Shown in pieces: positions 1,759 through 40,573 of a DNA stretch of 64,000 nucleotides. Position 1 is the first letter of the stretch; each line of letters starts with the position of its first letter. A model generated the notes under the pieces. The model had not been told where the DNA came from. It saw only the letters and a program-made list of their open reading frames with translations, and searched no databases. The DNA is from a virus: positions 22,927 through 86,926 of the IMG/VR virus record IMGVR_UViG_3300027754_005427, one strand, 5' to 3'. A program made the position numbers and the translations under genes.

Positions 1759-4200
1759 ATGAACTTTAATTTTCAAGAATGGCTGTTGATATTAGAAGAA
1801 TTAAAACCAAAAGCTTTGGCTTTTAAAATACTTGGTAATACAGTAGATAAAACTGGCAAGCCTGTTCTTAGTACTGATCCTAACATTATAAAAACAACAA
1901 ATGAATTCAATAAGATATTTACCGCTTCTGGTATTCCTGAAGCACAACAAAAAAACATTTATCCAACGGCAGCTTATGTGTACAAAACAAACCCATCAGT
2001 TAGCGAAGGAGAATTCTCTCAAGATTTAAAAGATTATTATAAATTTGTAATAGCCAACCAACTTCCTGTTTTATCATTTAATGATGATGGAAATGTAACT
2101 GGTAATAATATTATAGGAAAATCTAAAAGTGAAGGAAATCCATATTTGCATTATGCTGATTGGGCAACTATTATACATACTAAAAATAGCGAAAGTGAAG
2201 ATGAAGTAAAAAAGAAATTCCACCAAACTTTATACAAATCTACAGGTGATGTAAGCGATCAAGAACTAGTTGCAAAATCACCAGATGAAAAGATAAAGGT
2301 TTATAAATCTAATGCAGTTGACAAGTGTATTATTCTTGGTAGAGGTCAAAAGTTTTGCATATCTCAACCTGGCAATTCAATGTTTCAATCTTACAGGAAT
2401 ACCAAAGATTCAACTTTCTACTTTGTTTATGATAATACAAGAAACGATGATCTTAAAGTAGTTGTAGTTGATGCCACAATAAGTAAAATTGAAATTACTG
2501 ATAGCTCAAATAGAACAGATAAATTCATGCAAGATCCATATGTAACCGATAAAGTAACAGAAATAACCTCAAATTCAAAATTATACTTAAAATATTTAAA
2601 AGAAAAAGGCGTTGATATAACTGTATTTAAAAACGAGCAAAGAACAGCAAAAGAAAATGAAGAACATGAAAAATTAGGTAAGGAAAATAAAGACTTAGCA
2701 TGGTTTAAATCTTTAACATATGAAGAAAAGAAAAACTATGTTGGCAGAGGACACAGACTTTCAAGTGAACAATTTAATTGGCTAGTTTCAATTAACTCTG
2801 AACCACTTTTAAAACAACATTTATCACTTGGTATAGTTTTGTATGGTAAGCAGTTGAACCTTGTTCTTAATGATCCTTATTTTAAAGATTTAAAATTAAA
2901 TTATCTTAACGCAAGAATGAATGGTCTTCCAGAAAGACAGCTAGCAATAAAAGAATATTTAGCCATGCCACCAAAATACAAACAAGAGTTGGCAGAAAAA
3001 TATGGAGATAAACTTAAAGATTATATTAATGTTAATAAGCTTCATGTTTTAGAATATATTAATCTTAAAGAAGAAGAAAAAACAGAAATTGAAAGATTGT
3101 TTAATTATGGTGACAATCTTGTCAAAAATATTCAGAGAAAATTAGGCATTGAATATTATATTGATCTTCCAGAAGATAAAAAAATAGAAGTGCGAAAAAT
3201 ATATGGAGCACAACTTCTAGAAGAAATTGAAAATTTTAACCTTGAATACTATCTTGATCTTTCAGAGGATAAAAAAACAGAATTGAAAAAATTATTTTTA
3301 TACACTGATGCTAATAATGGCTCTAGACTACTTCAAAACAAAATTCAAAGATTTGACATTCAAACTTATCTTGATCTACCAGAAGATAAAAAAATAGAAA
3401 CAAAAAAGTTATTTGGAAAATATATTAAAAACCAGATATCTCCATACTCTTATGGTGGATTGTTTGCAAAGTATATACATAACCCAACTTTAGAATTTAC
3501 TGATGAAGAAAAAGAATTGATTAATTGTGGAACACAAACTTTCTTAATCGATATTTTAGACCAACCAAACAAAAACAATGTTAAATTTATGACTAAAATG
3601 CTTGAAACATGTCCAAACGCAGTAGATTTTCAGTATTTAAATGACAGACACGCATTAACTACCATATTTCAAGAACTCAAGGGTGAAAAAGTTAAATTTA
3701 TAAATTTACTGCATCTTTTAAGTAATTATTCAAATCAAATGCGATTGGATAATATAGATATTATATTTAATTACATGATTAACATTCTTGGTAATGTTTC
3801 TAAATACATATTTATGTTTAGAAAATTCTTTGAAAAGTTTGCTTCAGATTTAAGCAGTGCCAGCAGTCACGATAGATACGAAGGTTCGCAACATCATTCT
3901 AAAGTAGAGAAGAATTTCTTTAATGAAAATAAAACTCTTAAGTTGTTTAGAAAAATATTTGATGGAAATCCATATCATATGGAAAAATATAGTACAAATG
4001 ATTTAATTTCAACTATGAAATTTATTGTAGATACAATTGGAAAAGAAAAGTTTCCAAGAACTACAAGAGATTTAATAAAAGAAAAAGCTGGAGAAGAAGG
4101 TTATAAATCTATATTCCCAGAAGAAGAAACAGAAACATCTCCAGCAGATTACGATAAAGCATACACAAGAGATTCTACTAGAGAAGCAAGGATTATATAA
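1759..4200 (+). CDS. Large repeat protein with capsid-targeting-like N-terminus (paralog 1)
   Basis: 813 residues, no recognised family. The first residues, MNFNFQEWLLILEELK, look like a T4 capsid targeting sequence: an amphipathic start ending in an I-L-E site that fits the gp21 prohead-protease consensus (L/I)-x-E. Residues 1-330 form a globular region shared with the next gene, including CIILGRGQKFCISQPGNS and STFYFVYDNTRNDDLKVV. From about residue 390 there are degenerate repeats of about 30 residues built around YLxLPEDKKxExKKLFG. The C-terminus ends in an acidic, low-complexity tail. It is likely a late virion protein, possibly packaged in the head. That role is inferred from the N-terminus only. 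Confidence 0.7.
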   Translation: MNFNFQEWLLILEELKPKALAFKILGNTVDKTGKPVLSTDPNIIKTTNEFNKIFTASGIPEAQQKNIYPTAAYVYKTNPSVSEGEFSQDLKDYYKFVIANQLPVLSFNDDGNVTGNNIIGKSKSEGNPYLHYADWATIIHTKNSESEDEVKKKFHQTLYKSTGDVSDQELVAKSPDEKIKVYKSNAVDKCIILGRGQKFCISQPGNSMFQSYRNTKDSTFYFVYDNTRNDDLKVVVVDATISKIEITDSSNRTDKFMQDPYVTDKVTEITSNSKLYLKYLKEKGVDITVFKNEQRTAKENEEHEKLGKENKDLAWFKSLTYEEKKNYVGRGHRLSSEQFNWLVSINSEPLLKQHLSLGIVLYGKQLNLVLNDPYFKDLKLNYLNARMNGLPERQLAIKEYLAMPPKYKQELAEKYGDKLKDYINVNKLHVLEYINLKEEEKTEIERLFNYGDNLVKNIQRKLGIEYYIDLPEDKKIEVRKIYGAQLLEEIENFNLEYYLDLSEDKKTELKKLFLYTDANNGSRLLQNKIQRFDIQTYLDLPEDKKIETKKLFGKYIKNQISPYSYGGLFAKYIHNPTLEFTDEEKELINCGTQTFLIDILDQPNKNNVKFMTKMLETCPNAVDFQYLNDRHALTTIFQELKGEKVKFINLLHLLSNYSNQMRLDNIDIIFNYMINILGNVSKYIFMFRKFFEKFASDLSSASSHDRYEGSQHHSKVEKNFFNENKTLKLFRKIFDGNPYHMEKYSTNDLISTMKFIVDTIGKEKFPRTTRDLIKEKAGEEGYKSIFPEEETETSPADYDKAYTRDSTREARII

Positions 4201-4202
4201 TC
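4191..4202 (+). promoter_or_regulatory. Second copy of the 12-bp start-proximal palindrome
   Basis: GATTATATAATC at 4191-4202 overlaps the TAA stop of the upstream paralog and ends one base before the ATG at 4204. It matches 1746-1757 exactly. The duplication that produced the two genes therefore included this element. Confidence 0.4.
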
Positions 4203-4203
4203 T

Positions 4204-6960
4204 ATGAACTTTAATTTTCAAGAATGGCTGTTAATATTAGAAGAATTAAAACCAAAGGCTTTGGCTTTTAAAATACTTGGCAATACAGTAGATAATGCTG
4301 GCAAGCCTGTACTTAGTACTGATCCTAATATTATAAAAACAACAAATGAATTCAATAAGATATTTTCTGCTTCAATTCCTGAAGCACAACAAAAAAACAT
4401 TTATCCAACAGCAGCTTATGTGTATAAAACAAATCCATCAGTTGGCGAAGCAGAATTCTCTCAAGATTTAAAAGATTATTATAAATTTGTAATAGCCAAC
4501 CAACTTCCTGTTTTATCATTTAATGATGATGGAAATGTAACTGGGAACTATATTATAGGAAAGCCAAAAGATACAGGAAATCCATATTCACATTATATTC
4601 ATTGGGCATCTGCTGTACATTCTAAAAATAGCGAAAATGAAGATGAAGAAAAAAAGAAATTTCACCAAAGCTTACAAAAATCTACAGGTGATGTAAGTGA
4701 TCAAGAATTAGTTGCAAAATCACCAGATGAAAAGATAAAGGTTTATAAAGCTAACGCAGTAGACAAGTGTATTATTCTTGGTAGAGGTCAAAAGTTTTGC
4801 ATATCTCAACCTGGTAATTCACAATTTCATGGTTACAGGAATACCAAAGATTCAACTTTCTACTTTGTTTATGATAATACAAGAAATGATGATCTTAAAG
4901 TAGTTGTAGTTGATGCCACAAGAAGAGGTATTGAAATTACTGATGGAAAAAACGACACAGCAAAAACTATGCAAGATCCATATGAAACTACACCAAAAAT
5001 AATAACATCAAATTCAGATTTATACTTAAAATATTTAAAAGAAAAAGGTGTTGATACAACTGTCTTTAAAAATGAACGAAAAACACCAAAGGAAGAAGCA
5101 GAAAACGAAAAATTAGGTAAGGGTAATCTTGAATTAGCATGGTTTAGATCTTTAACATATGAAGAAAGAAAGAACTATATTGGAAGAGGACATACTCTTT
5201 CAGATGAACAATTTAATTTTCTATTTACAACTAGATCTGAGCCACTTTTAAAAATATATGTATCAACTGGTATAATTTTGTATAGTGAGCAGTTGAACCT
5301 TGTTCTTAACAATCCTTATTTTAAAGATTTAAAATTAAATTATCTTAATGCAAGAATGCATAATTTTCCAAATAAACATCTGTTTGCAGAAGAATATTTA
5401 GCCATGCCACCAAAACAAAAACAAGAATTAGTAGAAAAATATGGAGATAAACTTAAAGATTATATAGAAATTAAAAATATTAAAATTAAATATTATGTTA
5501 ATTTACCAGAAGATAAAAAAACTGAAATTAAAAACTTATTTGGAAATGATTTTTTTAATTCAATGTTAAATAATTCTAGGTATTCTCTTAAGATTGAAGA
5601 TTATCTTAATTTACCAGAAGATAAAAAGACCGAAATTAAAAATTTATCTAAAGATAATGTTTATCATTTATTTGGATATCAGTCTACTAAAGTTGAAGAT
5701 TATCTTAGTTTACCAGAAGATAAAAGAACCGAACTCGAAAACTTACTTGGAGATAATTATAAAAGATTAATAATATTTAATTCAATTAACATTGAAGATT
5801 ATCTTAATTTCCCAGAAAATAAAAAAGCTGAAATTAAAAACTTACTTGGAAATGATTCTAAAGATTTAATAAAATATCAGTCTATTAAAATTGAAGATTA
5901 TCTTAATTTCCCAGAAGATAAAAAAACTGAAATTAAAAACTTTCTTGGGTATAATTATAGAGATTTAATAATGTATAGGTCTATTAAAATTGAAGATTAT
6001 CTTAATTTCCCAGAAAATAAAAAAGCAGAAATTAAAAAATTATTTGGAGATAGTTTCAAAAGTTATCTAATTTCAGATCATAGTGGTAGTTATATTAAAG
6101 CCGAAGATTATCTTAATTTACCAGAAGATAAAAAAACTGAAATTAAAAACTTTCTTGGAGATAGTTTCAAAGATTATGTATCAAATTTTTATGATTTATT
6201 TAGAAAATATGAAAAAAATCCAAGTTTGGAATTTAATGATGAAATAAAAAATTTAATTACTTGTAAAAATGCTGATTTTGTATCTGAAATTTTAAGACAA
6301 CCAAACAAAAACAATGTTAAGTTTTTGACTGATTTTTTAAGATCAAGTTGTAAAGGTTTAATAGATGATATATTAAGTAGCGGTGATAGTATTAGGGATA
6401 CATTTGATGAATTTTACGATAAAAAATTTAAAAGTATAGACAAAGTTAAAGTTATAAATTTATTGCATCTTTTAAGTACTTATTCAAATCAAATGCCAAT
6501 GAGAAATATATCAAATTTAATTAGCAATATTAGAGCTTATCTTGGTAGTAGTTCTAAATACATTGTTATGTTCAGAAAATTCTTCCAGAATTTTGCTTCA
6601 AAATTACAAGATGCCAAAGAAGTTAATCGTGATCAAGAAGACATGCATCATTCTGATGTAAGTAAAAATCATGAAAACACTAGTATAAAATTATTTGCAG
6701 ATATCTTAAGTTCTTTTGGAAAAATATTAGATAAAGATGCAATTTCAACTATTAAATTCATTGTAGATACAATTGGAAACGAAAAGATCCCAAGAACTAC
6801 AAGGGATTTAATAAAAGAAAAAGCTGGAGAAGAAGGTTATAAATCTATATTCCCAGAACAACAGCAACAACAACAAGCATCTCCAGAAGATTACGATAAA
6901 GCATACAGAGGAGATTCTACTAGAGAAGGAAGAGATTATAAGATGAATCGCTTAAGATAA
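4204..6960 (+). CDS. Large repeat protein with capsid-targeting-like N-terminus (paralog 2)
   Basis: 918 residues, a tandem paralog of 1759-4200. The first 300 residues are close to identical over long blocks, including the CTS-like MNFNFQEWLLILEE start. The repeat region is longer than in paralog 1, with seven or eight units of the form IEDYLNLPEDKKTEIKNLLG followed by a variable loop, between about residues 415 and 660. The C-terminal region is again shared (KFLTDFLR, INLLHLLSTYSNQM, TIGNEKIPRTTRDLIKEKAG) and ends with a Gln run. Unequal crossing-over between repeat units would explain the length difference. The function is unknown; a structural or injected protein is plausible. Confidence 0.7.
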   Translation: MNFNFQEWLLILEELKPKALAFKILGNTVDNAGKPVLSTDPNIIKTTNEFNKIFSASIPEAQQKNIYPTAAYVYKTNPSVGEAEFSQDLKDYYKFVIANQLPVLSFNDDGNVTGNYIIGKPKDTGNPYSHYIHWASAVHSKNSENEDEEKKKFHQSLQKSTGDVSDQELVAKSPDEKIKVYKANAVDKCIILGRGQKFCISQPGNSQFHGYRNTKDSTFYFVYDNTRNDDLKVVVVDATRRGIEITDGKNDTAKTMQDPYETTPKIITSNSDLYLKYLKEKGVDTTVFKNERKTPKEEAENEKLGKGNLELAWFRSLTYEERKNYIGRGHTLSDEQFNFLFTTRSEPLLKIYVSTGIILYSEQLNLVLNNPYFKDLKLNYLNARMHNFPNKHLFAEEYLAMPPKQKQELVEKYGDKLKDYIEIKNIKIKYYVNLPEDKKTEIKNLFGNDFFNSMLNNSRYSLKIEDYLNLPEDKKTEIKNLSKDNVYHLFGYQSTKVEDYLSLPEDKRTELENLLGDNYKRLIIFNSINIEDYLNFPENKKAEIKNLLGNDSKDLIKYQSIKIEDYLNFPEDKKTEIKNFLGYNYRDLIMYRSIKIEDYLNFPENKKAEIKKLFGDSFKSYLISDHSGSYIKAEDYLNLPEDKKTEIKNFLGDSFKDYVSNFYDLFRKYEKNPSLEFNDEIKNLITCKNADFVSEILRQPNKNNVKFLTDFLRSSCKGLIDDILSSGDSIRDTFDEFYDKKFKSIDKVKVINLLHLLSTYSNQMPMRNISNLISNIRAYLGSSSKYIVMFRKFFQNFASKLQDAKEVNRDQEDMHHSDVSKNHENTSIKLFADILSSFGKILDKDAISTIKFIVDTIGNEKIPRTTRDLIKEKAGEEGYKSIFPEQQQQQQASPEDYDKAYRGDSTREGRDYKMNRLR

Positions 6961-6965
6961 TAACC

Positions 6966-7787
6966 TTATTTTTTCTTTACTTCTGTTTGATTTAAAATTT
7001 CTTTATAATCTTCAATATTATTGAATGCTATTAAAAATCCGCTATTGTGACAAAAATTAGCTTTTTCATTAGGTGAAAATTTAACTATATCAACATTGTT
7101 ACTTACCATTCTGTATCCACCTTTTTTATTTCTACTATCTATAGTTAATATAACATCAACTTCAATTTTCCTGTCTTTGCAATACTTTTTAGTTGGAAGA
7201 TTTTCAATTTTAAATCCATCTTTTATTTTGCAATTAGTTAAATCTAATATTTTAATATTATTAAACAAAAAATGCTTTACACCATCTTCTATAATTTGCA
7301 TAAATTCTTTATTGTTTTCAATTTCTTCACAAATAGATTTTCCAATTTCTTTCATTAGTGAATATATTGGATCAGTAATTTCCCCAGTAATTTTAGAAAA
7401 AACTGATAAGATAGAGTTCCTAATAGGACTGAATATTATATTTAAACTTTCTTCAGATACATTGGCAAACTTTGCTGCTGCTTTTTGTCCATAACTATCA
7501 TATATTTCAACAAATTTAAGTTGCGGAAAATCTTCTCTGTAATCTTTTCCATAAAGATAATCAAGAACCATAGTAAAGCCACAAATTTGTTCCTTTATGT
7601 GATGATGATCAAAATTATGTAACTCTGGATTAAAAGATAATCCTTGATCAACAACCCAATATAAAGCACTTTCTAAATGTTCTGTAGTAGCTTTTGTTCT
7701 TAATGCTCTTTGATTTGTTTTATATATTAATACACAAGTAGCTAAGAAATCATCTTCATGTGCTCTTCCATCATGTACAATTATCAT
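6966..7787 (-). CDS. MYG1/UPF0160-like DHH-superfamily protein
   Basis: 273 residues. The N-terminal VHDGRAHEDDFLATCVLI and the later VVDQGLSFNPELHNFDHHH match the two metal-binding blocks of the MYG1 (UPF0160/GAMP) family: HDGxxHxDDxLA and DxGxxxxxxxxxFDHH. The fold is that of DHH phosphoesterases, and eukaryotic MYG1 is reported to be an exonuclease. A nuclease acting on RNA or DNA ends is therefore likely here. The protein is somewhat shorter than cellular MYG1. It is convergent with the large repeat genes and divergent from 7937. AAAAGG lies 10 bases upstream of the ATG. Confidence 0.8.
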   Translation of the reverse strand: MIIVHDGRAHEDDFLATCVLIYKTNQRALRTKATTEHLESALYWVVDQGLSFNPELHNFDHHHIKEQICGFTMVLDYLYGKDYREDFPQLKFVEIYDSYGQKAAAKFANVSEESLNIIFSPIRNSILSVFSKITGEITDPIYSLMKEIGKSICEEIENNKEFMQIIEDGVKHFLFNNIKILDLTNCKIKDGFKIENLPTKKYCKDRKIEVDVILTIDSRNKKGGYRMVSNNVDIVKFSPNEKANFCHNSGFLIAFNNIEDYKEILNQTEVKKK

Positions 7788-7936
7788 AATTGAACCTTTT
7801 ATTAAAAAATTAAATTTATTATATTTAATTTATAAGATAAGACTAATTATGTCAAGTTTAATAAAAATATACTTGCAATTATTAAATGTTAATATTAATA
7901 TGCTTAATAACAATATTTAAAAACTTAAGGATATTT

Positions 7937-8605
7937 ATGAATATTATTGATTTTACAAATGACCTTGATAAAACTAATTTAACCTTTAGGGAAGTTGAAG
8001 AGCAGATAAAAAACTTCACATTAGATTTTACAGGTACAAAAAATGAAGAATCAGAATATAGAATAAGTTTTCCAAGATACATTACGCCTTTTTACGAATA
8101 TGTTTTCAACAAACAAATTGTTCCAACTCAAATTCATTATGTTAATTATCTTTACATATCAAAAAACATTGAATGGCTTAATGAACAAAAATTCTCAGAT
8201 AAAATCATGAGAGGCTTGGAATTTAGACTAAAACAAACTTATCCATCTTTAGTAAGAGATTTACACTTTTGTTTATTTTTAAAAGAGAAAAGCAATTTTG
8301 ATAATATTATTTACAATATAGATTTAGACTTTAAACATGGAATAGATATTTTAATTAAAAAAGAAAATAAAAATTTTGGTGTCAATCTTTATACTAGTAC
8401 TAGAAGAGGAATGGAATTTAGAGAGAAGAAAAGTAAGAGGCACACATATTTTGATGATGTTTCAAACATAGAGTTACCAGTAGATTTTCACGGAAGTAGA
8501 ATATGCGGTAATTTCTTTTTATATGGTGACAGAGAAATGAATTTATTATCAAAAATAATTGATAGTAAATTACAATTAGAAAAAGAAATATCTTACAATC
8601 TATGA
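7937..8605 (+). CDS. Hypothetical protein, possible nuclease-like fold
   Basis: 222 residues from the ATG at 7937, which follows AAGGA. An in-frame extension back to 7886 would add a hydrophobic stretch without a ribosome site, so I reject it. The central segment DLHFCLFLKEKS..YNIDLDFKHGIDILIKKENKNFGVNLY loosely resembles the core strand order of PD-(D/E)xK nucleases (D in HGIDILI). The usual E-x-K is replaced by V-N-L, so catalytic activity is doubtful. There is no transmembrane segment. The 3' end overlaps the convergent gene at 8593 by 13 bases. Confidence 0.5.
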   Translation: MNIIDFTNDLDKTNLTFREVEEQIKNFTLDFTGTKNEESEYRISFPRYITPFYEYVFNKQIVPTQIHYVNYLYISKNIEWLNEQKFSDKIMRGLEFRLKQTYPSLVRDLHFCLFLKEKSNFDNIIYNIDLDFKHGIDILIKKENKNFGVNLYTSTRRGMEFREKKSKRHTYFDDVSNIELPVDFHGSRICGNFFLYGDREMNLLSKIIDSKLQLEKEISYNL

Positions 8606-8802
8606 GCTTTTTTTATATTCTTTAAAATTCCGTTGGCTAATTTAACAATTAAATCAGAGATTTCTATATCTCTATTAGAAATTTTGTTTTCAACAATATC
8701 ATTGTAAATAATTTGAGATGCTTTTTTCAAAGCATCTATTTGATTTAATACTTCAATTTTATTTTCAATAATAATACCCACGGCTTTATTAACATTAATC
8801 AT
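8593..8802 (-). CDS. Small helical protein of unknown function
   Basis: 69 residues, mostly predicted helix (VNKAVGIIIENKIEVLNQIDALKKASQ), charged and without cysteines. It overlaps the end of the upstream gene 8795-9298 by eight bases, with the start codon inside the last codons, so translational coupling is likely. No family is recognised. Confidence 0.5.
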   Translation of the reverse strand: MINVNKAVGIIIENKIEVLNQIDALKKASQIIYNDIVENKISNRDIEISDLIVKLANGILKNIKKAHRL

Positions 8803-9298
8803 TTTGACAAGTATTATAAAGTTTAAATATTTCGTTATCTAAGGTTTGTAATTTAGAAGGTTCTTTTTCCGATAAAAAACATTCATCGTCAAAGTATTCT
8901 GGTTTATTATTTAATAAGTATCTGCCATCAAACATTACTATGAGTTGATCATTATATTTACCAACAAAATCATCAATTGATTGCACTTCTTCTTTTATAG
9001 AATTGTATTTTGAAGTTTCAGCAACCATAAAAACAATTTGATTGTATTCAACTTTATTATCTTTATTTTTTCTAAGGACTGTGAATCCACTTTTTGAAGT
9101 TCCAATATATTCAATTATATTAGAAGCAATGTATTCAATTGATTCTTCGATTGTAGTTCCGTTACCAAAATCAATTAAGCTATTTGCATTTTCAATTACG
9201 CTATATCTAAATGGATAATTTTGATAATTCTGATCTAGCCACTTTCTGGTGTCTGAAATTAATTCTGTTATATTTTTATAGTTTTTAACTTCATGCAT
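8795..9298 (-). CDS. Hypothetical protein
   Basis: 167 residues from the ATG at 9298. The ATG three codons further upstream overlaps the AAAAGG ribosome site, so the second ATG, eight bases downstream of that site, is the better start. The sequence has an N-terminal helical part (NITELISDTRKWLDQNY) and a mixed alpha/beta C-terminal part (QLIVMFDGRYLL). No catalytic motif is evident. It is co-transcribed with the small gene 8593-8802. Confidence 0.5.
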   Translation of the reverse strand: MHEVKNYKNITELISDTRKWLDQNYQNYPFRYSVIENANSLIDFGNGTTIEESIEYIASNIIEYIGTSKSGFTVLRKNKDNKVEYNQIVFMVAETSKYNSIKEEVQSIDDFVGKYNDQLIVMFDGRYLLNNKPEYFDDECFLSEKEPSKLQTLDNEIFKLYNTCQND

Positions 9299-9394
9299 TT
9301 GGCACATCCTTTTGTTTTTAGAATTCGACTACATGTTTATTATATAAAAAATGTAATCAAAAGCAATTTTAGTTATTAAGTTTTATTTAAAAAG

Positions 9395-9907
9395 CTAAAA
9401 TGTTTTTTTCTTAACAAACCAAGCATATGGAGATATTCCGCATAGTTTAGAAGTACCGCATGCTTCACAATATCCTTTGTGATATTGTAAATAATACTGT
9501 GCAAAAATATCTTTGTTGTACCATGTATGTTGACCATATATGTCATTTATACAAAATAAACTTTCTTCAGTCATTTCACTTATTATGAAAAAATGGCCTT
9601 CTATTTTTTTAAAATCAAACATAAATGTTGATTTCATTATTATTATGTGATTTGAATTTAGAGCATCTTCTATTTCTTTTATAGTTGGTAAGTTTTTACA
9701 TTTTACATCGATGCCACTAATACTATTTAAACTTTTTTCAAAATATGGTTGATGTGTTCCTTCTTTTGTACACTTGCATTTTCTTTTATATTTAGAATAA
9801 TCTTTATTATAATTAATTTCTATTTCAAGCCATTTCAATACATTTAATATAGCAACTGGACCGCATGATGATTTGTTTTTTTGTGCAATCCATCTTGTTG
9901 TTGTCAT
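9395..9907 (-). CDS. Papain-like C39-type cysteine protease
   Basis: 170 residues. QKNKSSCGPVAILNVLKWL at the N-terminus is the nucleophile block (Gln for the oxyanion hole, then Cys) of C39 and related peptidases. The His block is EGHFFIISE, and a following Asn/Asp sits in CINDIYG, completing a plausible Cys-His-Asn/Asp triad. Two Cys-rich spots (KRKCKCTK and CEACGTSKLCG) may bind zinc. There is no signal peptide or ABC transporter domain, unlike bacteriocin-exporting C39 enzymes. The gene has a GAGGTG ribosome site. Cleavage of host or virion proteins is possible; the substrate is unknown. Confidence 0.7.
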   Translation of the reverse strand: MTTTRWIAQKNKSSCGPVAILNVLKWLEIEINYNKDYSKYKRKCKCTKEGTHQPYFEKSLNSISGIDVKCKNLPTIKEIEDALNSNHIIIMKSTFMFDFKKIEGHFFIISEMTEESLFCINDIYGQHTWYNKDIFAQYYLQYHKGYCEACGTSKLCGISPYAWFVKKKTF

Positions 9908-9961
9908 ATTACACCTCGTATTAAGAATTGTAATTTATTTATTCATAATTAATCAAATAAA

Positions 9962-10117
9962 TTATGTGCTTTCTTCTAAATTTATAGTTTCTTCATGTAA
10001 TCCATAAGGACAATTTTTGCAGCCACTTTTGCAACATTTGCCTCTTTTTAATAGAAATTCCTTAGTAAACACCATTAATCCATTTTCATCGTAATAAAAG
10101 TCTATGTTTTCTTGCAT
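9962..10117 (-). CDS. DUF5522-like cysteine-rich small protein
   Basis: 51 residues. The sequence YYDENGLMVFTKEF.LKRGKCCKSGCKNCPYG matches the short DUF5522 family (pattern: F-x-N-G-x-x-V-F-T, then L-x-R-G-x-C-C-x-x-x-C-x-x-C-P-Y). Four or five cysteines are arranged as a probable metal or Fe-S site. The family is common as a stand-alone small protein in bacteria; its role is unknown. Its conserved composition makes this short frame credible as a real gene. The ribosome site is weak. Confidence 0.75.
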   Translation of the reverse strand: MQENIDFYYDENGLMVFTKEFLLKRGKCCKSGCKNCPYGLHEETINLEEST

Positions 10118-10250
10118 TTTTATTAAATTTCACTTATTTTATATTAAAAATTAATAATATTATTCATCTTTTTAAAAGTTAAAGGCAATTTTCAATGTTT
10201 TCTCTTATTTTTTACCAAACAATATTACTTTTATTAATTAATACTATCAA
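10118..10250. other. AT-rich intergenic spacer
   Basis: About 130 bases of AT-rich sequence between two minus-strand genes. No open frame, clear hairpin or promoter consensus stands out. Confidence 0.4.
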
Positions 10251-10931
10251 TTAATTGTTTTTATCTAAACTGGTTAATTCAGCCAATACATTTGCATTTA
10301 AATTTTCTTCAACGAATTTTATATCATCTTCATCAAAATATTTCATGTATTGTTTTTTTGAATAAAAATTTTCATCTTTGTATTGCATACTATTAACTTG
10401 TCTGATTTCTGCTGCTTTACCTGGGTTTATATTTTCTGATGGAAACACTATGGTAGGAGATTTAAGTTTCATGTTAAATTTTTCAGCTATTTTTTTCAAA
10501 ACATCTTCAGTTTGTAACAGTAAAGAATCATATTTTATAAATATTTTTTTACCTGCTGTGTCGCAAAATAACCATGATTCATTCATTTTATTCCAAAGAA
10601 ATATAGGGTTTAATTCTTCGAATTGAGGAATTTTACTTGATCTATCTTTATATACGAATTTACTTCTAATGAATTTTTTAAAATCAAAACCTTTCGTTGC
10701 AGGAAATATATTAATTTTATTTTTTCTATTTGAATAAGTATAAATCGAATAAAGCCAAGAAAAAGGTTCTTTGAAAACAATGATTGTATTAGCTTCTAAA
10801 TCTTTTTTTATATGACCGTGTTTCCAAGCGTGTTGGTTAACTAATGGAATTACATCAAAATTTCTTAATATTAAAAATTCTAAAAAATTTGTTCCGCTTC
10901 TCATTAATCCGTGTATTTTTACAGAAGTCAT
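10251..10931 (-). CDS. Sulfotransferase-like P-loop protein
   Basis: 226 residues. KIHGLMRSGTNFLE is the 5'-phosphosulfate (PAPS) P-loop of sulfotransferases, here in the G-x-x-R-S-G-T form. IIVFKEPFSWLYSIYTYSN matches the 3'-phosphate-binding block (R/K-x-P-x-x-x-x-x-S). The length suits small carbohydrate sulfotransferases. The ATG overlaps the stop of the upstream glycine-rich gene (ATGA), so the two are translationally coupled. It may sulfate a glycan or a tyrosine on a virion or host-surface target; the acceptor cannot be read from sequence. Confidence 0.75.
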   Translation of the reverse strand: MTSVKIHGLMRSGTNFLEFLILRNFDVIPLVNQHAWKHGHIKKDLEANTIIVFKEPFSWLYSIYTYSNRKNKINIFPATKGFDFKKFIRSKFVYKDRSSKIPQFEELNPIFLWNKMNESWLFCDTAGKKIFIKYDSLLLQTEDVLKKIAEKFNMKLKSPTIVFPSENINPGKAAEIRQVNSMQYKDENFYSKKQYMKYFDEDDIKFVEENLNANVLAELTSLDKNN

Positions 10932-11716
10932 ATGCCATTTCCGCCATTGTTAAAGCCACCACCAAATTGACCACCACTAAATTGACCAAATCCCATATTG
11001 CCACGCATATTTTGACCGCCCATATTACCACCACCGCCACTCTGAAATGCTAAACCACCAACCCCAGACATAATACCCTGCATCGCCATAGAATAAAAGG
11101 GATTATTCATACCAATTGCTTGAACACCGCCACCTTGATTGAATCCACCACCTTGATTGAATCCACCACCTTGATTGAATCCACCACCTATTAAACTGCC
11201 ACTTTGATTGAATCCACCACCTTGATTGAATCCACCACCTTGATTGAATCCACCACCTTGATTGAATCCACCACCTTGATTGAATCCACCACCTTGATTG
11301 AATCCACCACCTTGATTGAATCCACCACCTTGATTGAATCCACCACCTTGATTGAATCCACCACCTTGATTGAATCCACCACCTTGATTGAATCCACCAC
11401 CTTGATTGAATCCACCACCTGTAGAAAGTGGAATTTGATAAAGCTTCGAGATTTGGATGCCTGGAGTATTATTTTGTGTGTATTGTGCAGTGCCTTGAAT
11501 GCCTCCTGTATTTTGTTGAAAACCGCCAAAACCGCCAACGCCACTAGAACTGCTTCCAGTATTAAAATTAATGTTTTGATTTGCTATTTGAGGCTGTACT
11601 GTATTATTTAAAGCAGGAGGAAATGAAGGACTTAGTGGTAAAATACTTCTATATTTTTGAGCTTGAGAAGTAGAAGCTATTATCAAAAACAAAAAAATTA
11701 CAATTGTTTTTTTCAT
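10928..11716 (-). CDS. Secreted glycine-rich GGGFNQ-repeat protein
   Basis: 262 residues. The N-terminus (MKKTIVIFLFLIIASTSQAQ) is a classical signal peptide with a likely cut after SQA. About fifteen tandem GGGFNQ hexapeptides follow, in blocks of twelve and three separated by SGSLI. The C-terminus is rich in Gly, Met, Asn and Gln (GGNMGGQNMRGNMGFGQF). Such composition is typical of amyloid- or prion-like, surface-adhesive or low-complexity extracellular proteins. A signal peptide on a phage protein implies export during infection. It is coupled to the sulfotransferase by an ATGA overlap. Confidence 0.7.
   Translation of the reverse strand: MKKTIVIFLFLIIASTSQAQKYRSILPLSPSFPPALNNTVQPQIANQNINFNTGSSSSGVGGFGGFQQNTGGIQGTAQYTQNNTPGIQISKLYQIPLSTGGGFNQGGGFNQGGGFNQGGGFNQGGGFNQGGGFNQGGGFNQGGGFNQGGGFNQGGGFNQGGGFNQGGGFNQSGSLIGGGFNQGGGFNQGGGFNQGGGVQAIGMNNPFYSMAMQGIMSGVGGLAFQSGGGGNMGGQNMRGNMGFGQFSGGQFGGGFNNGGNGI
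11130..11420 (-). repeat. 18-bp tandem repeat array inside the glycine-rich gene
   Basis: Units of CCACCTTGATTGAATCCA (plus strand) repeat nearly without change, interrupted once near 11185-11205. The 18-bp period keeps the frame, so copy number can vary without disrupting the protein. The near-identity at the DNA level indicates recent expansion. Confidence 0.85.
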
Positions 11717-11723
11717 GATTTAT

Positions 11724-12101
11724 TCAACCAATTTCTTCAATCGTACCAGACAATTCAATGATTGGTATTGCCTCCCAGTTAGTTAAATTATTGCTAAAAG
11801 ATGGTTTACCATGATTTTTATAATTAACTGCTATAGTGATATGTTTTATTTTGTTTTCTGAGAGCATATCTGTAATTACTCCAACCGCTATTACTTGCTC
11901 GTCAAAAGCAAGTGTAACTGCTTCTATTTCAACCTTTTGTCCTATCATATTTTTTATATTTTCATTTATAGTTTTAGAAGCTTTGCCTTTATTAATAGTC
12001 ATATGATGACAAACTATTTTCCAATCCTCATTAAAAAAAGGGGAAAATTTATCTTTAAGTTTGTTTTTAGATTTTTCGTCTAAGACTATTGCTGTGTACA
12101 T
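11724..12101 (-). CDS. 2H phosphoesterase-like protein
   Basis: 125 residues with two H-x-T signatures, CHHMTINKG and KHITIAVNY, spaced as in 2H phosphoesterases (RNA 2',3'-cyclic phosphodiesterases; closest in feel to the CPDase domain of plant/fungal-type tRNA ligases). Such enzymes reverse or finish RNA-end modification and can also cleave 2',5'-oligoadenylates. A role in RNA repair or in countering a nucleotide-based host defence is therefore possible. The ATG at 12101 is preceded at four bases by AATATATA and lacks a Shine-Dalgarno. Confidence 0.65.
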   Translation of the reverse strand: MYTAIVLDEKSKNKLKDKFSPFFNEDWKIVCHHMTINKGKASKTINENIKNMIGQKVEIEAVTLAFDEQVIAVGVITDMLSENKIKHITIAVNYKNHGKPSFSNNLTNWEAIPIIELSGTIEEIG

Positions 12102-12127
12102 GAATTATATATTAAATAAAATCATAA

Positions 12128-12496
12128 TTAATTATCATAATTTTTATTTTTAATAATTTCATAGTTTCCAATTGAAATTACATCATATTTAGAAAATATT
12201 TTAGGAATCTGAACTTTATTTAAAATTTTATCTTTACTCCATATTAAAGCATAAACATCACTAGGTAAATTTTCAATTAAATAATTAAATGTAAATTTAC
12301 CTAAGCCTTTATTTCTATAAGATTCACAAATATGAAAATTAATTAAATTATAATAATAAGCAGAAAATCTTTGAAGCGTATAATTTGTTTTTTCAAATAA
12401 TAAATATCCTATTTTTTCATGATTATGAAATAAATTTATATATTTGTTTTCTTCTAAAGTTATTTCGTAGCCTTCTTGATAAAAATCGATTACCAT
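12128..12496 (-). CDS. GNAT-family acetyltransferase
   Basis: 122 residues. The acetyl-CoA loop is visible in FHICESYRNKGLGKFTFNYLIE (R-x-x-G-x-G type). It is preceded by the strand pair EKIGYLLFEKTN and followed by DVYALIWSKDK. The protein is short for the superfamily but complete in its core. The substrate is unknown; protein, amino-sugar or small-molecule acetylation are all possible. It is divergent from the Fe-S carrier gene at 12604. Confidence 0.65.
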   Translation of the reverse strand: MVIDFYQEGYEITLEENKYINLFHNHEKIGYLLFEKTNYTLQRFSAYYYNLINFHICESYRNKGLGKFTFNYLIENLPSDVYALIWSKDKILNKVQIPKIFSKYDVISIGNYEIIKNKNYDN

Positions 12497-12533
12497 ATGT
12501 AAATATATATTACTAAAAATATTTTATTTTTTT

Positions 12534-12559
12534 ACATATAAGTATTTTTACTTATATGT
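12534..12559. promoter_or_regulatory. 11-bp perfect inverted repeat upstream of the Fe-S carrier gene
   Basis: ACATATAAGTA at 12534-12544 pairs exactly with TACTTATATGT at 12549-12559 across a TTTT loop. It sits between divergent genes, 45 bases before the ATG at 12604. It is either an operator for a dimeric regulator or an RNA hairpin in the leader. No U-run follows, so it is not a standard terminator. Confidence 0.45.
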
Positions 12560-12603
12560 TATATTAAATTAATTAGCATTTTAAATTTTAAAAGGATAAA
12601 GCC

Positions 12604-12954
12604 ATGGCAATTTCAATTACAAACAGAGCTAAGAACGAATTCATTCATATTATTGAAGAGCAAAAATCACAAGATCCAGAGTTTGCAAACAAGAAACAAT
12701 ACTTAAGGATTAGAGTTGTTGGAGGTGGTTGTTCTGGATTTCAATACAAGCTTACAGTTGATGATCAAGTAAATGAAAACTTAGATGATTGTCAAACAAT
12801 TAATGAAGTAGAGGTTGTAATTGACAAAAGAAGCATAATGTATATTTCTGAAGCAAAAATTGATTATTTAGATGATTTGAATGAAAGAGGATTCAAAATT
12901 GAAAATCCTGATACTAAAACAACTTGTGGATGTGGCAAAAGCTTTTCTTTTTAA
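12604..12954 (+). CDS. A-type iron-sulfur carrier protein (IscA/ErpA/HesB family)
   Basis: 116 residues. It has the three invariant cysteines of A-type carriers: Cys43 in GGGCSGFQY and Cys108/Cys110 in TTCGCGKSF. The family signature SIMYISEAKIDYLDDLNERGFKIENP is conserved. Such proteins receive Fe-S clusters from the scaffold and hand them to target enzymes. Phage copies are known in marine and freshwater myoviruses, where they are thought to support Fe-S proteins during infection. AAAAGGA lies 9 bases before the ATG. The following gene (12978) is in the same direction. Confidence 0.9.
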   Translation: MAISITNRAKNEFIHIIEEQKSQDPEFANKKQYLRIRVVGGGCSGFQYKLTVDDQVNENLDDCQTINEVEVVIDKRSIMYISEAKIDYLDDLNERGFKIENPDTKTTCGCGKSFSF

Positions 12955-12977
12955 ATAATGTTTCAACAGGAGAAAAA

Positions 12978-13427
12978 ATGAGTCCAGATAAAGAAAAAAG
13001 ACTTTATGATAATTATCCCGAGTTATTTTATTCAATGAATGATAAAAATCCAGAATTAACATTAATGTGGGGAATTGAATGTGAAGATGGTTGGTATGAT
13101 ATTATTGATTGTTTATGTTATGAAATTATTAAAAAATCAAGAAAGGAAAGGTCTGTAGAAAGGTCTTTAGAAGAATACGAAGAAGCAATGAAAAAATTTG
13201 AAAGAATTCCTTCTGTAATTCAAATTAAAGAAAAATTTGGATTGTTAACAGTTTGTATTAATAATATTAATAAGGAGCATAAAGCTTTAATTGATTTTGC
13301 CGAGAGATTAAGTTCTAAAACATGTGAATTTTGTGGTACATCTAAAGATGTAAAATTAACATCTGTTGGGTGGATAAAAACACTTTGTCCAGAACATACT
13401 GATTTATTTAATGGTAGAAAGGTATAA
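12978..13427 (+). CDS. Phage protein with C-terminal zinc-finger-like motif
   Basis: 149 residues from the ATG at 12978, which is preceded by AGGAG. A longer frame back to 12924 overlaps the Fe-S carrier gene and lacks a ribosome site. The sequence has WGIECEDGWYDIIDCLC near the N-terminus, IQIKEKFGLLTVCIN in the middle and TCEFCGTSKDVKL..GWIKTLCPEH at the end, giving a CxxC...CxxH metal site. This architecture recurs as a hypothetical protein in many tailed phages. I know no assigned function. Confidence 0.65.
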   Translation: MSPDKEKRLYDNYPELFYSMNDKNPELTLMWGIECEDGWYDIIDCLCYEIIKKSRKERSVERSLEEYEEAMKKFERIPSVIQIKEKFGLLTVCINNINKEHKALIDFAERLSSKTCEFCGTSKDVKLTSVGWIKTLCPEHTDLFNGRKV

Positions 13428-13710
13428 TTTAAAAAATATGAATGTTAACAATGTAAAAATAACTGTGGATATTGGAGATGGAACTTTATGGACATATGAA
13501 AATATTTGTAGTTTCGTTACAAAAGAAAGGTTGTTAAATGAAAATGACGACAGTACAAAAATTTATAGTATGAACATAGATTCTTTAAATGTAAAAATAG
13601 AAAAAAAAGAAATGCTAGATACATTACAGGAAATATCAAAAAAATTAGATATTTTAATTAACAAAGAAGATAAAAAGCCAGCGTGTAGAAAATCTAAATC
13701 AAATAACTAG
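13411..13710 (+). CDS. Small hypothetical protein
   Basis: 99 residues if translated from the ATG at 13411, which overlaps the preceding gene by 17 bases. An alternative ATG at 13438 would give 90 residues, with GAAAGG 15 bases upstream as a distant ribosome site. The sequence NVNNVKITVDIGDGTLWTYENICSF suggests a beta-rich N-terminus. KKEMLDTLQEISKKLDILINK suggests a C-terminal amphipathic or coiled-coil helix. Nothing identifies a family. Confidence 0.5.
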   Translation: MVERYNLKNMNVNNVKITVDIGDGTLWTYENICSFVTKERLLNENDDSTKIYSMNIDSLNVKIEKKEMLDTLQEISKKLDILINKEDKKPACRKSKSNN

Positions 13711-13743
13711 CTTGTTTAATTTATAACAATATACTATAATTAA

Positions 13744-13804
13744 TTAGGGCTGGGGATGGTATAATGGTGGTTATACGGGGAAATAGGTGGTATCCCCAGC
13801 CTAA
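13744..13804 (+). ncRNA. Candidate structured RNA: 13-bp closing stem with a 6-bp inner hairpin
   Basis: The arms 13744-13757 and 13792-13804 are complementary over 13 pairs, with one extra unpaired G in the left arm. Inside, GTATAA (13759-13764) pairs with TTATAC (13771-13776) around TGGTGG. The GC-rich stem is striking in this AT-rich genome and lies alone in a 133-base gap. ATGGTATAATGGT resembles a tRNA D-arm, and the terminal seven pairs resemble an acceptor stem, but there is no anticodon or T arm. It could be a tRNA-derived RNA, a processing signal or a terminator. The strand is uncertain. Confidence 0.5.
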
Positions 13805-13843
13805 TATAATTATAATATTTAAATAAAAAAACATATATAACGC

Positions 13844-14590: not shown

Positions 14591-14683
14591 GCAAAATAAT
14601 AATTATCATTGACTTATTTAAACAATATATTATATTTACATTGCGTACATTTGCCTTATATATTTAATAAAATAGAAATTATT

Positions 14684-17797: not shown

Positions 17798-17813
17798 TTA
17801 ATATAATAATTAA

Positions 17814-18470: not shown

Positions 18471-18483
18471 TAAATATATAACA

Positions 18484-18780: not shown

Positions 18781-18796
18781 AAACAGGAGTAAATAA

Positions 18797-23042: not shown

Positions 23043-23285
23043 TTATAATTCCTGATCTTTATGCCAATGTATTTTATGGTCGCCTCTAGTATGTTTTTTA
23101 TGGTGAATAATACTTTTTTTTATAGGCATATGGCCTCTATTGCTGAAAAGTGTATCTGGCTGCACTTCACCTAATTTGATTATAATTTTATCGCCTTTTG
23201 GAGCTTTAGGATTATCTAAATTAAACATTTTTTTCTTTTTGTTTTCGCTCATAATCAACCAGTTTTTAAAAGTTTGGCCAAGCAT
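23043..23285 (-). CDS. Small basic protein with a capsid-targeting-like N-terminus
   Basis: 80 residues, rich in Lys and His (KKSIIHHKKHTRGDHKIHWHK). The N-terminus MLGQTFKNWLIMSENKKKK has the F-K-x-W-L...E layout shared with the other CTS-like proteins in this window, ending at M-S-E. AAAGG lies eight bases before the ATG. The basic, histidine-rich tail would suit contact with DNA or another polyanion. It sits just downstream of the pseudopilin gene. The function is not known. Confidence 0.5.
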   Translation of the reverse strand: MLGQTFKNWLIMSENKKKKMFNLDNPKAPKGDKIIIKLGEVQPDTLFSNRGHMPIKKSIIHHKKHTRGDHKIHWHKDQEL

Positions 23286-33464: not shown

Positions 33465-34424
33465 ATGAAATCATTTATGGAATATGTACAACTGAAAAAC
33501 GAAGGCTACTTTGATTTTTTCAAACCGAAAAAACCTGCTCCTGCTGGTGCTTCAACTGCTCCTACTGGTGCTTCAACTGCTCCTACTGGTGCTTCTGACA
33601 GAGAGAAAAAAAGAAAGCCTTTAGGTACTTATGATCCTTACACTGCCAAATATAGTCCTCTAACGAAAGATGGACCAAGCTATGTAAATGATAAGCGTAT
33701 GTCGCCTGATAAAGCAGCAGCAGCCGAAGATCAATATGATAAAAACAGTGCGACTGCATATCCTATAGAAAAACAAGATCCTGGCATGAAAGCATTAATA
33801 GACCAGGGCAATGCTGTGGATAAATTTAAAAAATTAGAAGACGATATTAAATATGGAAGATTTTCGTACGATACAAGCAATGTTCCAAAAATGATGCTTT
33901 TTATGTTGAATAATCATATGGATGGCAGCTATATGCCATTTTTCGGTTCTTTGGTAAAAAACAATGCGGTTAAAATGATTCCATATGATCTCGCTTTGAG
34001 AACTATGGAATTAAACTTTGGAAATAACTCAAGTACGATGGCACTTAAATCTTTTCTCGCAAGACATCTTATGGAAAAAACTCCAAGTAAAATACAAGGT
34101 TTAGAATCATTGGAGTTAATCAGACAAAGTTTAGTATCAACTGATAAATGGGCAAAAAGAATTTTACATACACCTGATTTCTTACAACACATAAAAGAAG
34201 AAGATATAAAAGACATTTTGTTGAAATTCTTTGAAAGAAGACCAGACTTGGCGAAGAAATATTACGAAGAAAATGGCGAAAGAATGCGACTTAATCAAAA
34301 GTACAAACAAGCAAATGACTCAAGATATCAGAAACCAAATGATATGGAAAATTTAATCTATTCCATGTTTGGCGGAAAAAACGAATCATTCAAGACACAT
34401 AAAAAATCACTATTCGAATGGTAA
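33465..34424 (+). CDS. Hypothetical protein with a capsid-targeting-like N-terminus
   Basis: 319 residues. MKSFMEYVQLKNEGYF follows the CTS-like layout, with an acidic residue before Gly where cleavage could occur (K-N-E/G, not a perfect L-x-E). A short linker holds 24-bp repeats encoding GASTAPT. Residues 90-310 are mostly helical (MMLFMLNNHMDGSYMPFFGSL, TMALKSFLARHLMEK, DILLKFFERRPDLAKKYYEE). AGGGAG precedes the ATG. It is immediately followed by another CTS-like gene with three bases between. It is a candidate internal head protein. Confidence 0.6.
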   Translation: MKSFMEYVQLKNEGYFDFFKPKKPAPAGASTAPTGASTAPTGASDREKKRKPLGTYDPYTAKYSPLTKDGPSYVNDKRMSPDKAAAAEDQYDKNSATAYPIEKQDPGMKALIDQGNAVDKFKKLEDDIKYGRFSYDTSNVPKMMLFMLNNHMDGSYMPFFGSLVKNNAVKMIPYDLALRTMELNFGNNSSTMALKSFLARHLMEKTPSKIQGLESLELIRQSLVSTDKWAKRILHTPDFLQHIKEEDIKDILLKFFERRPDLAKKYYEENGERMRLNQKYKQANDSRYQKPNDMENLIYSMFGGKNESFKTHKKSLFEW

Positions 34425-34427: not shown

Positions 34428-34751
34428 ATGAACTTTAAAGAATGGCTACAAAATCGTGATCCCGAAATGTTGAATGAAGGCAAAAAACCATTCAAAAATT
34501 TCAACAAAGAAAAAAACCATCCAGAAGGTGGACTTAAACCATCATATGCCAAAAAATTAGGTATTCACGCAGGTATTGAAACTAAGCGTGAAGCCGAAAG
34601 AAAAGGCGGTGTTGATAAAATGTCTAAAAAAACAAAAGCTAGAAGAAAATCATTTTGTGCAAGAATGTGTAAAGCAGGAACAGAAAAAAGTAGAAATGAT
34701 CCTGAAAGCAAACAAAGAGCAGCTTTGAGAGTTTGGAAGTGCAGATGCTAG
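34428..34751 (+). CDS. DUF6321-like basic protein with a capsid-targeting-like N-terminus
   Basis: 107 residues. MNFKEWLQNRDPEMLNEGKK has the CTS layout and a perfect L-N-E/G protease-like site at residues 15-18. The rest is strongly basic and ends with TKARRKSFCARMCKAGTEKS..DPESKQRAALRVWKCRC. This RRKSFCARM...LRxWxC signature is found in a family of small phage and bacterial proteins (DUF6321-type). A DNA-bound protein released inside the capsid would fit. Its start is three bases after the preceding stop, so the two genes are probably co-translated. Confidence 0.65.
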   Translation: MNFKEWLQNRDPEMLNEGKKPFKNFNKEKNHPEGGLKPSYAKKLGIHAGIETKREAERKGGVDKMSKKTKARRKSFCARMCKAGTEKSRNDPESKQRAALRVWKCRC

Positions 34752-37805: not shown

Positions 37806-37816
37806 TATAAACTAAA

Positions 37817-38485
37817 TTAAGTGTCTAAATTTAATTTTTTATTTTTTTCTAATTCTTGTGTGTAAGTTATAGGTGAAGGAAGACCACTTTGCTTAGTTGA
37901 AACAAGTTTTAAGTTAAACCTTTGAGCTATTTGTTCAAAATTAGGTATTTTTTTTCCTATTTCTGGCGAATAATAAAGTGTATCCCATATAATTTCTTTT
38001 CCAAAAACAAGTGCTTCATCGTAATGAGAGCGAGTAGGATTGAGTGGAGTAATTGGAAGTGATTCTGTAGAATTGTCGTCTAAAAGATTTGTAGATACAT
38101 CTTTTGCATAGTAATATTCAATTCGCCCAATACCAGAAATAACAAGTTCTGTATTCCACACACCTTTAGCTTTTTCGCCAATAGAAACAGAAATTTGTTT
38201 GATGCTATTTATTATATTGTATATTCTTTCTTCAAAGTCATCTAACGCAATCGTTTTGTAAACTTTAACTTTATTATTATACTTCTTATTGATTATCGCA
38301 GCCCTGCCTCTTGCTTTTTGCTCCATTTCCTTGGCTTGTTTTGGATTTTTGTAGGCATGGTCAGGATTAGAATTCCAAGAAATAATTTTTTCTTTATCTT
38401 TTTTAGAATTAGGAACTTGCGGAGTCCTATTGAAAAGATCTTCTTTTATTTGAAAACTTTCCATCCATTTCACAAATGATTTCAT
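37817..38485 (-). CDS. Hypothetical protein with a capsid-targeting-like N-terminus
   Basis: 222 residues. MKSFVKWMESFQIKEDLFN has the CTS layout with a perfect I-K-E site at residues 13-15. The region AKEMEQKARGRAAIINKKYN is basic and helical. IGRIEYYYAKDVSTNLLDD and EALVFGKEIIWDTLYYSP are mixed. No family is recognised. The start lies four bases after CATAAATA, without a Shine-Dalgarno. Perfect 27-bp direct repeats flank the gene, so it may have moved as a cassette. Confidence 0.6.
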   Translation of the reverse strand: MKSFVKWMESFQIKEDLFNRTPQVPNSKKDKEKIISWNSNPDHAYKNPKQAKEMEQKARGRAAIINKKYNNKVKVYKTIALDDFEERIYNIINSIKQISVSIGEKAKGVWNTELVISGIGRIEYYYAKDVSTNLLDDNSTESLPITPLNPTRSHYDEALVFGKEIIWDTLYYSPEIGKKIPNFEQIAQRFNLKLVSTKQSGLPSPITYTQELEKNKKLNLDT

Positions 38486-39119: not shown

Positions 39120-39130
39120 GGAGAATTACA

Positions 39131-39559: not shown

Positions 39560-39612
39560 TCTCTTAGTTCACTTTGCTGGACTAAAGAAGCTCCTTAGTT
39601 CACGCAAACCGC

Positions 39613-39649: not shown

Positions 39650-39654
39650 TTAAC

Positions 39655-40005
39655 TTAACCATTCCAATATTTGACTGGAATTAGTCTTTTGGGAAAATGT
39701 TTCAAAGCTATGGCAATACGATGATGTCCATCAGTTAAAGTTTGATTTTCATCCTTATCAACATGAATTTCAATTGGAGTCTTAATTCCATCTTTTAAAA
39801 TCTTATCAAGTAAACCTGTTTTTTTGGCATTATCATATTTAAAATCCAACAGCTTTTTGTCATCACCATTAGCAAAATCAAATCTTCCACGAAGATCATC
39901 GTGATCTTCAAAACTAACCGAACCAATTATTTCTTTGGCAGACAAAGATTTTGGCAAATGTTCAAATTGCGTATTTTTGTTTTCTAAAAATTCTTTAAAT
40001 CTCAT
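39655..40005 (-). CDS. ParB/sulfiredoxin-like domain protein with a capsid-targeting-like N-terminus
   Basis: 116 residues from the ATG at 40005; an ATG five codons upstream is possible but would overlap the box GATAAATA. DGIKTPIEIHVDKDENQTLTDGHHRIAIAL is the ParB/Srx nucleotide-binding core (D-G-x-H-R). MRFKEFLENKNTQFEH at the start matches the CTS layout but without a perfect L/I-x-E site. ParB-like domains bind CTP or ATP and include DNA nucleases. Here it may be an injected DNA-interacting protein. Confidence 0.65.
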   Translation of the reverse strand: MRFKEFLENKNTQFEHLPKSLSAKEIIGSVSFEDHDDLRGRFDFANGDDKKLLDFKYDNAKKTGLLDKILKDGIKTPIEIHVDKDENQTLTDGHHRIAIALKHFPKRLIPVKYWNG

Positions 40006-40120
40006 GTAATTATTTATCATAAAAATATCAAGAAAATCTTAAAATAATCTAATATATATTAAATAATTTTTAGTTAAAAGAATTTTAATATTATTTTTAA
40101 TATAAACAATAAATAATATT

Positions 40121-40573
40121 ATGAAATTTAAAGATTATGTTGAAAAAAGAGATCTGCTTGAAGCTAACTGGTGGGAAGACGATAAAGAAACTCTTGGAAA
40201 AATCAAAGAAATAATAGCAGGTGTAGTAATGAAGTCTGGTAAAACTCCAGATGAATACAAAAAGATAACAGAATCATTGTATGAACTTTTATATTCTTTT
40301 TATAGATCAATAAAAATTATAAAAGAAAAAGAATCTAAGGATAGTAGCTTTTCTACTTTGAAAAAAAATGGTTTACTTGATATGACTAAAGATATTGAAA
40401 ATAATAAAAATATAAAAAAAGCTATTATGAATAAATTAAACAATGATGGTATTGTGTCTAAAATTGAAAAAGAAATAGTAACAGCAGTAGAAAAAGAAAT
40501 AGAAAATGAAAATATGTCAGACGCAAAAAGATATGCAGATGGCAAAGATCAATCTAATAACGCTTTTAGATAA
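40121..40573 (+). CDS. Hypothetical helical protein with a capsid-targeting-like N-terminus
   Basis: 150 residues. MKFKDYVEKRDLLEANWW is the clearest CTS in the window: short amphipathic start and an exact L-L-E/A cleavage-type site at residues 12-15. The remaining protein is almost all charged helix (LGKIKEIIAGVVMKSGKTPDE, KIEKEIVTAVEKEIENEN), like T4 internal proteins. AATAAATA lies five bases before the ATG, without a Shine-Dalgarno. It is convergent with the GT25-like genes. Confidence 0.62.
   Translation: MKFKDYVEKRDLLEANWWEDDKETLGKIKEIIAGVVMKSGKTPDEYKKITESLYELLYSFYRSIKIIKEKESKDSSFSTLKKNGLLDMTKDIENNKNIKKAIMNKLNNDGIVSKIEKEIVTAVEKEIENENMSDAKRYADGKDQSNNAFR

Follow-up and report, generated by a model that had tools for sequence, protein, structure and literature searches.

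Unrelated proteins of a lake-water giant phage share an N-terminal tag that resembles the T4 capsid-targeting sequence

INTRODUCTION

Why should proteins with unrelated bodies begin in the same way? The question is raised by a giant phage from lake water, in which 15 or more proteins with nothing else in common carry the same short N-terminal label. The stretch of its DNA analysed here, called the window, comprises 64 kb of 86.9 kb (bases 22,927–86,926 of an 86,926-base linear IMG/VR virus record). The original prediction, made from the window, read these N-termini as capsid-targeting sequences (CTS) of the kind carried by the internal proteins (IPs) and Alt of phage T4.

The T-even IPs have only their leader in common and block type IV restriction enzymes (PMC12373910), and Alt is a packaged ADP-ribosyltransferase (PMC9026906, PMC12373910). 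In suppressor mutagenesis of the T4 IPIII leader, targeting was traced to positions 4 and 7 and processing to positions 8 and 10; gp21 cleaves after L/I-x-E (PMC9026906). In the giant phages, the shared label suggests that a large ready-made toolkit is brought into the host.

RESULTS AND DISCUSSION

Tagged proteins of the record

All eight N-termini of the original prediction are present at the genes it named, as follows (a slash follows the glutamate of the tag).

1759..4200, + strand: tagged protein 1, 813 aa; MNFNFQEWLLILE/E, tag at 1759–1797
4204..6960, + strand: tagged protein 2, 918 aa, tandem paralogue of the 1759 protein; identical tag at 4204–4242
23043..23285, − strand: tagged protein, 80 aa; MLGQTFKNWLIMSE/N, tag at 23244–23285
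33465..34424, + strand: tagged protein, 319 aa, weaker member; MKSFMEYVQLKNEG, tag-like, no exact L/I-x-E
34428..34751, + strand: tagged small basic Cys-rich protein, 107 aa, weakly DUF6321-like; MNFKEWLQNRDPEMLNE/G, tag at 34428–34478
37817..38485, − strand: tagged protein, 222 aa, body function unassigned; MKSFVKWMESFQIKE/D, tag at 38441–38485
39655..40020, − strand: tagged ParB/Srx-like protein with a DGHHR motif, weaker member; tag MRFKEFLENKN at about 39973–40005, no L/I-x-E
40121..40573, + strand: tagged protein, 150 aa; MKFKDYVEKRDLLE/A, tag at 40121–40162

Four distinct N-termini contain an exact L/I-x-E, as had been predicted: ILE (1759 and its paralogue 4204), LNE (34428), IKE (37817) and LLE (40121). 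The tags at 33465 and 39655 are without it; the start of the latter is an internal Met, codon 6, near position 40005. The tag at 23043–23285, which reads MLGQT-FKNWLIMSE/N, has M-S-E instead. The claimed likeness among unrelated bodies is confirmed; the 1759 and 4204 proteins, 70% identical over 558 aa, are counted once because they are tandem paralogues. The ParB-like and DUF6321-like labels amount to weak database matches, and for most tagged bodies inside the window no confident database match was found. Tagged protein 1 consists, after the tag, of a ∼400-aa domain of unassigned function, found also in an ankyrin protein that is itself tagged and encoded upstream of the window, and of helical repeats; the AlphaFold model of this 1759-family domain (A5) had a mean pLDDT of 65 and its fold search gave nothing useful.

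Of 105 ORFs, 79 are matched in G001, a relative of 101 kb. Its relative of the 1759 protein is 63% identical with the tag exactly kept, that of the 23043 protein (at 32745; 65% identical) starts MDNINFKDWLIMKE/N, and that of the 34428 protein keeps both tag and site (MQNFKEWLQNRDPEMLDE/T). For the 40121 protein the body is only 34% identical, yet MKFKIYVENRDIFE/N is kept.

The expectation that further such N-termini would be found beyond the window was borne out by nine more tagged ORFs at record positions 1662–19688. These lie in the 22.9 kb missing from the window and have stronger tags, the window set being the weaker half: MNFKQWLILSE/N, MNFKSWLLISE/S, MNFKSWLLITE/A, MQNFKEWLLKE/S, MNFKSWLLLSE/N, MNFKSWLVISE/M, MNFKSWLLSE, MLKFRNWLMRFES and MKFKKWLLLIE/T. 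Among the upstream bodies are ankyrin repeats, zinc-finger/HNH nucleases and a kinase-like protein, and tagged proteins account for 24% of the coding sequence in the record.

Excess over chance and modularity

The strict core F-x-x-W-(hydrophobic) occurs at residues 2–5 of 10 ORFs of the record, where 0.06 are expected from the internal rate within the same proteins (Poisson p = 7e-20). A motif-free scan of ∼1,500 spaced residue pairs, comparing the first 14 residues with internal segments, also ranked FxxW as the most over-represented N-terminal pair in the record (11 seen vs 0.34 expected, p = 7e-14), followed by WxxxxE. FxxW was likewise the first-ranked pair in G001, G017, G021 and the 595-kb phage LR756511, and N-terminal over-representation of the tag was observed in 8/8 clade records tested. 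phiKZ had no motif excess in the 100 kb sampled (1 vs 0.63 expected). No tags were found in 100 kb sampled from LR756508, a more distant giant phage with an S77 homologue; the device is therefore clade-limited or unevenly placed, and S77 alone is no predictor of it.

It is highly improbable that the likeness is a functionless product of common descent or recent duplication of one family, or of chance N-terminal composition. Such an origin would fit the 1759/4204 tandem duplicates and the repeats that several large tagged proteins have in common, but not the strict-core excess in the record set against the phiKZ control, nor the sorting of 312 tagged ORFs into 142 body families by single linkage. 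Tags also survive where the bodies have diverged: at <40% body identity, the best homologue was itself tagged for 69 of 101 tagged proteins, compared with 29 of 493 untagged ones. Some apparently untagged homologues were ORFs cut by contig ends, and these were excluded as instances of tag loss.

The modular nature of the tag can be followed on one gene of the window.

11724..12101, − strand: untagged 2H/tRNA-ligase-CPD-like phosphoesterase; the G005 body is 43% identical and tagged

This phosphoesterase is untagged in the window, G001 and G010, and a 16-residue N-terminal tag is added in G005, whose residue 17 meets residue 2 of the untagged proteins as the start of the body. The alignment indicates that the tag is gained or lost as a unit on this protein.

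Tag-like C-termini (KTFEQFLINK, ESFKEWLSKK, ESFNNWLIE) were seen on some proteins, several of them N-terminally tagged too, at G000 (the record) 9588–12557, upstream of the window, and at L058:14427–15125, G017 188266 and G013 57350; overall, the C-terminal copy was just slightly above chance. In T4, the C-terminus of Alt is also trimmed.

Likeness to the T4 leader and the end of the tag

The tag pattern recovers known T4 leaders. In a 33-kb T4 sample its matches were IPII and IPIII, which start MKTYQEFIAE/A, and one spurious ORF; IPI starts MKTFKEF, with ITE/A further on (NC_000866). Leader residues 4, 7, 8 and 10 of T4 correspond to the conserved F, W, L and E columns of the tag, although in most tags of this clade the E sits one or two residues further on than in T4. 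As in T4 IPI, IPII, IPIII and Alt, a short N-terminal leader with aromatics three apart and then hydrophobic-x-E precedes unrelated mature bodies; relatives with a head module also have an S77 protease in the head cluster. The F/Y-x-x-W/F/Y spacing that forms the conserved core appears to match the aromatics at leader positions 4 and 7.

Relatives had been gathered by a DNA-pattern scan of viral contigs that demanded E at W+5. An initial count of (L/I)-x-E was dropped as biased, since the fetching pattern required this residue, and the cleavage-site test was repeated with the pattern-matching tags removed (the ascertainment-free set). In this set, conservation stops at the P1 glutamate: E(+5) carries 0.96 bits, the residue after it 0.14, and later positions ∼0; information is also high at the F, W and L, of which F and W are fixed by the selection of tags. 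(L/I)-x-E was present in 67 of 99 ascertainment-free tags against 32.1 ± 4.4 in shuffled ones, and in 28 of 41 against 11.5 in the strictest subset, limited to the window record, G001 and loci that were capsid-selected or belong to a head module. A gp21-type (L/I)-x-E closing the leader is a property of the group: about one third of tags are without the exact motif, including members such as 33465 and 39655. The tag is real, modular and clade-wide, with the layout of the T4 CTS and a gp21-type glutamate context.

The scale differs from that of T4. T4 has three small IPs, whereas about 12–42 pattern matches, a few of them by chance, were found per clade record examined, and in some fragments the tagged genes occupy as much as a quarter to a third of the coding capacity. 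The tagged bodies reach ∼1,000 aa, many are enzymes, and the consensus is the W-rich MNFKxWLLxSE.

Head genes, prohead protease and capsid site

A prohead protease was expected from the original prediction. In the record, a ∼87-kb fragment, searches found neither a capsid gene nor a prohead-protease (S77) gene nor any other head gene; since this fragment yielded no head genes at all, its S77 negative is uninformative. In relatives with a head module the protease is present. The link between tag and S77 rests on relatives with part of their genes in common, since the record has no head gene: large tag-bearing contigs have genes in common with the window's phage, at identities of about 25–65% (18 genes matched in G017).

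The head cluster of these relatives has the order Portal_T4, a ∼600-aa protein, Peptidase_S77, a scaffold-position protein and Gp23. The T4-like order gp20, S77 (gp21), gp22-like, gp23 is found in the relatives, where the gp22-like scaffold is named by position alone, and is absent from the window's record. Pfam Portal_T4, Peptidase_S77 and Gp23 were all detected in G021, where an S77 protease is encoded at 129421–130089. The capsid-protein search returned 359 loci, of which 80 were kept. S77 was present in 56/56 major-capsid loci with ≥3 kb of upstream DNA, in each of the 20 head-module clade records searched in full, and in LR756511. In the whole-record searches a capsid gene was always accompanied by S77, and fragments without a capsid gene had neither. 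All 80 capsid proteins have hydrophobic-N-E (I/M/V/F-N-E) a few residues before the Gp23 domain, where T4 gp23 has LTE/A; this predicted cleavage site takes the form L-(I/M/V/F)-N-E or a close variant. Of the 38 eligible head loci, at least 19 have a small tagged gene no more than 1.5 kb upstream of the gene for the 600-aa protein, approximately the position of T4 genes 67/68.

Two minor features of the head genes were observed. A second, divergent S77 homologue is located distant from the head cluster (LR756511 242240–243133; G030:238190–238609), and the T4-type portal gene of G021 (L055:4643–7153) includes an intein-like splicing domain.

The recovery of the T4 IPs, the end of conservation at the P1 glutamate, and S77 with a matching capsid site in relatives support the capsid-targeting reading, which the sequence evidence would widen to a large arsenal in the clade. 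Very probably, a T4-type capsid-targeting system has been expanded in a clade of giant T4-like phages and loads, trims and injects this arsenal. By analogy with T4, we infer targeting, cleavage, packaging, injection and action of the cargo. The tag would be a removable T4-type capsid-targeting propeptide, in which the aromatic pair three apart (F/Y-x-x-W/F/Y-L/I) may direct the protein to the prohead core and the S77 (gp21-type) protease would cleave after the glutamate of (L/I)-x-E. Trimmed cargo would remain in the head beside the DNA and enter the cell upon infection. The clade would have put this device on dozens of unrelated, often enzymatic proteins, the outcome being a pre-loaded kit for host takeover and counter-defence.

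The tagged proteins could have another fate. The tag may join proteins to the prohead core as core or scaffold components, most of which leave or are degraded, with few injected effectors. T4 core proteins are mostly removed at maturation (PMC9026906), and some small tagged proteins of the clade occupy the gp67/68 position of the head cluster. We consider this account rather unlikely, given that most tagged genes are distant from the head cluster and that their bodies include types without a scaffold role (ART, Nudix, CCA polymerase, C39 peptidase, HAD-SAK), which differ by clade member. Alternatively, the tag could send proteins uncut elsewhere in the infected cell, to the membrane, a replication compartment or a partner complex. 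It does resemble a short amphipathic helix, a third of tags are without the exact L/I-x-E, and many cargo enzymes could act late as well as early. This destination is nonetheless unlikely: conservation ends abruptly at a glutamate that fits gp21 specificity, tagged genes are located within the head-gene cluster, T4 IPs with the same motif are known to be packaged and trimmed, and the nucleus-forming phiKZ has no motif excess.

The proposed delivery of proteins also has parallels outside T4. The giant phages phiKZ and SPN3US package numerous proteins and eject them, and a prohead protease trims some of these (PMC5694885, PMC10052503); phiKZ differs in having no excess of the motif in its sample, and the present clade has T4-type Gp23, gp20 and S77. 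Polyvalent proteins of phages and plasmids similarly bring in injected ART and other conflict domains, and one tagged protein matches Pfam ART-PolyVal. They are, however, single long multi-domain polypeptides, whereas here the genes are separate, with a targeting tag on each. The T4 leader and S77 in jumbo phages are already in the literature; in open-licence papers we found no description of the expansion of the tag.

Cargo of the tagged proteins

Tagged proteins in relatives match ART-PolyVal (E = 9.6e-19), NUDIX (5.6e-17), PolyA_pol (3e-22), AAA_33 (6.6e-17), Peptidase_C39/C70 (2.3e-18) and HAD_SAK_1 (1.6e-15). Across the clade, the tagged bodies comprise ADP-ribosyltransferase, Nudix, CCA/poly(A) polymerase, 2H phosphoesterase, HAD-SAK, kinase-like, C39 peptidase, HNH and ankyrin proteins. 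Judged by these matches, the cargo activities are of RNA-repair, NAD/ADP-ribose and host-modifying types, from which we infer that the cargo may act as a counter-defence kit.

Should the tag function as it does in T4, sequence alone would reveal which proteins hundreds of uncultured giant phages inject, and any gene starting F-x-x-W-L ... (L/I)-x-E would be a candidate injected effector. Many candidate proteins for counter-defence and host takeover could then be listed, the majority without an assigned fold, and a portable tag would be available to load proteins into T4-type heads. More tentatively, and with slightly less than even confidence, we propose that the propeptide is a general secretion-like code, carried by dozens of genes per genome with cargo swapped behind the tag. 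The cargo would then make up a counter-defence kit, prepared in advance, of RNA-repair and NAD/ADP-ribose functions (CCA polymerase, 2H and HAD-SAK phosphoesterase/phosphatase, PNK-like kinase, Nudix, ART, protease and nuclease), delivered at DNA entry, for the window's phage probably into a Planctomycetota host.

A tagged family with a YHRT...GxGLYTT signature is ADP-ribosyltransferase-like (L044:7770–9245, with relatives in G005, G010 and G021) and has a weak sequence match to Tox-ART-HYD1 (0.12). The AlphaFold model of this domain (A6), a suspected ART, had a mean pLDDT of 61 and no significant PDB match (best E 0.08), its matches including several ART-fold toxins, MbcT and tankyrase, with ART-fold E values of 0.2 or worse; neither this model nor that of A5 is used as evidence. 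Profile searches of the PDB gave nothing useful.

Host and other genes of the record

The record holds tail-collar and RCC1-repeat proteins, thymidylate synthase and DHFR. At window positions 22072–23022 it encodes a DUF1559 pseudopilin of planctomycete type. A Planctomycetota host for the window's phage is plausible from this gene alone, because the pseudopilin is 74% identical to a protein of a Planctomycetota MAG from Lake Pavin. A SET-domain protein (E = 1.7e-11) is encoded by the phage at window positions 21262–22008. RCC1-repeat proteins are found at 26228–27607, 50433–55137 and 61011–63638, near tail-collar genes, and are possibly adhesins or fibres.
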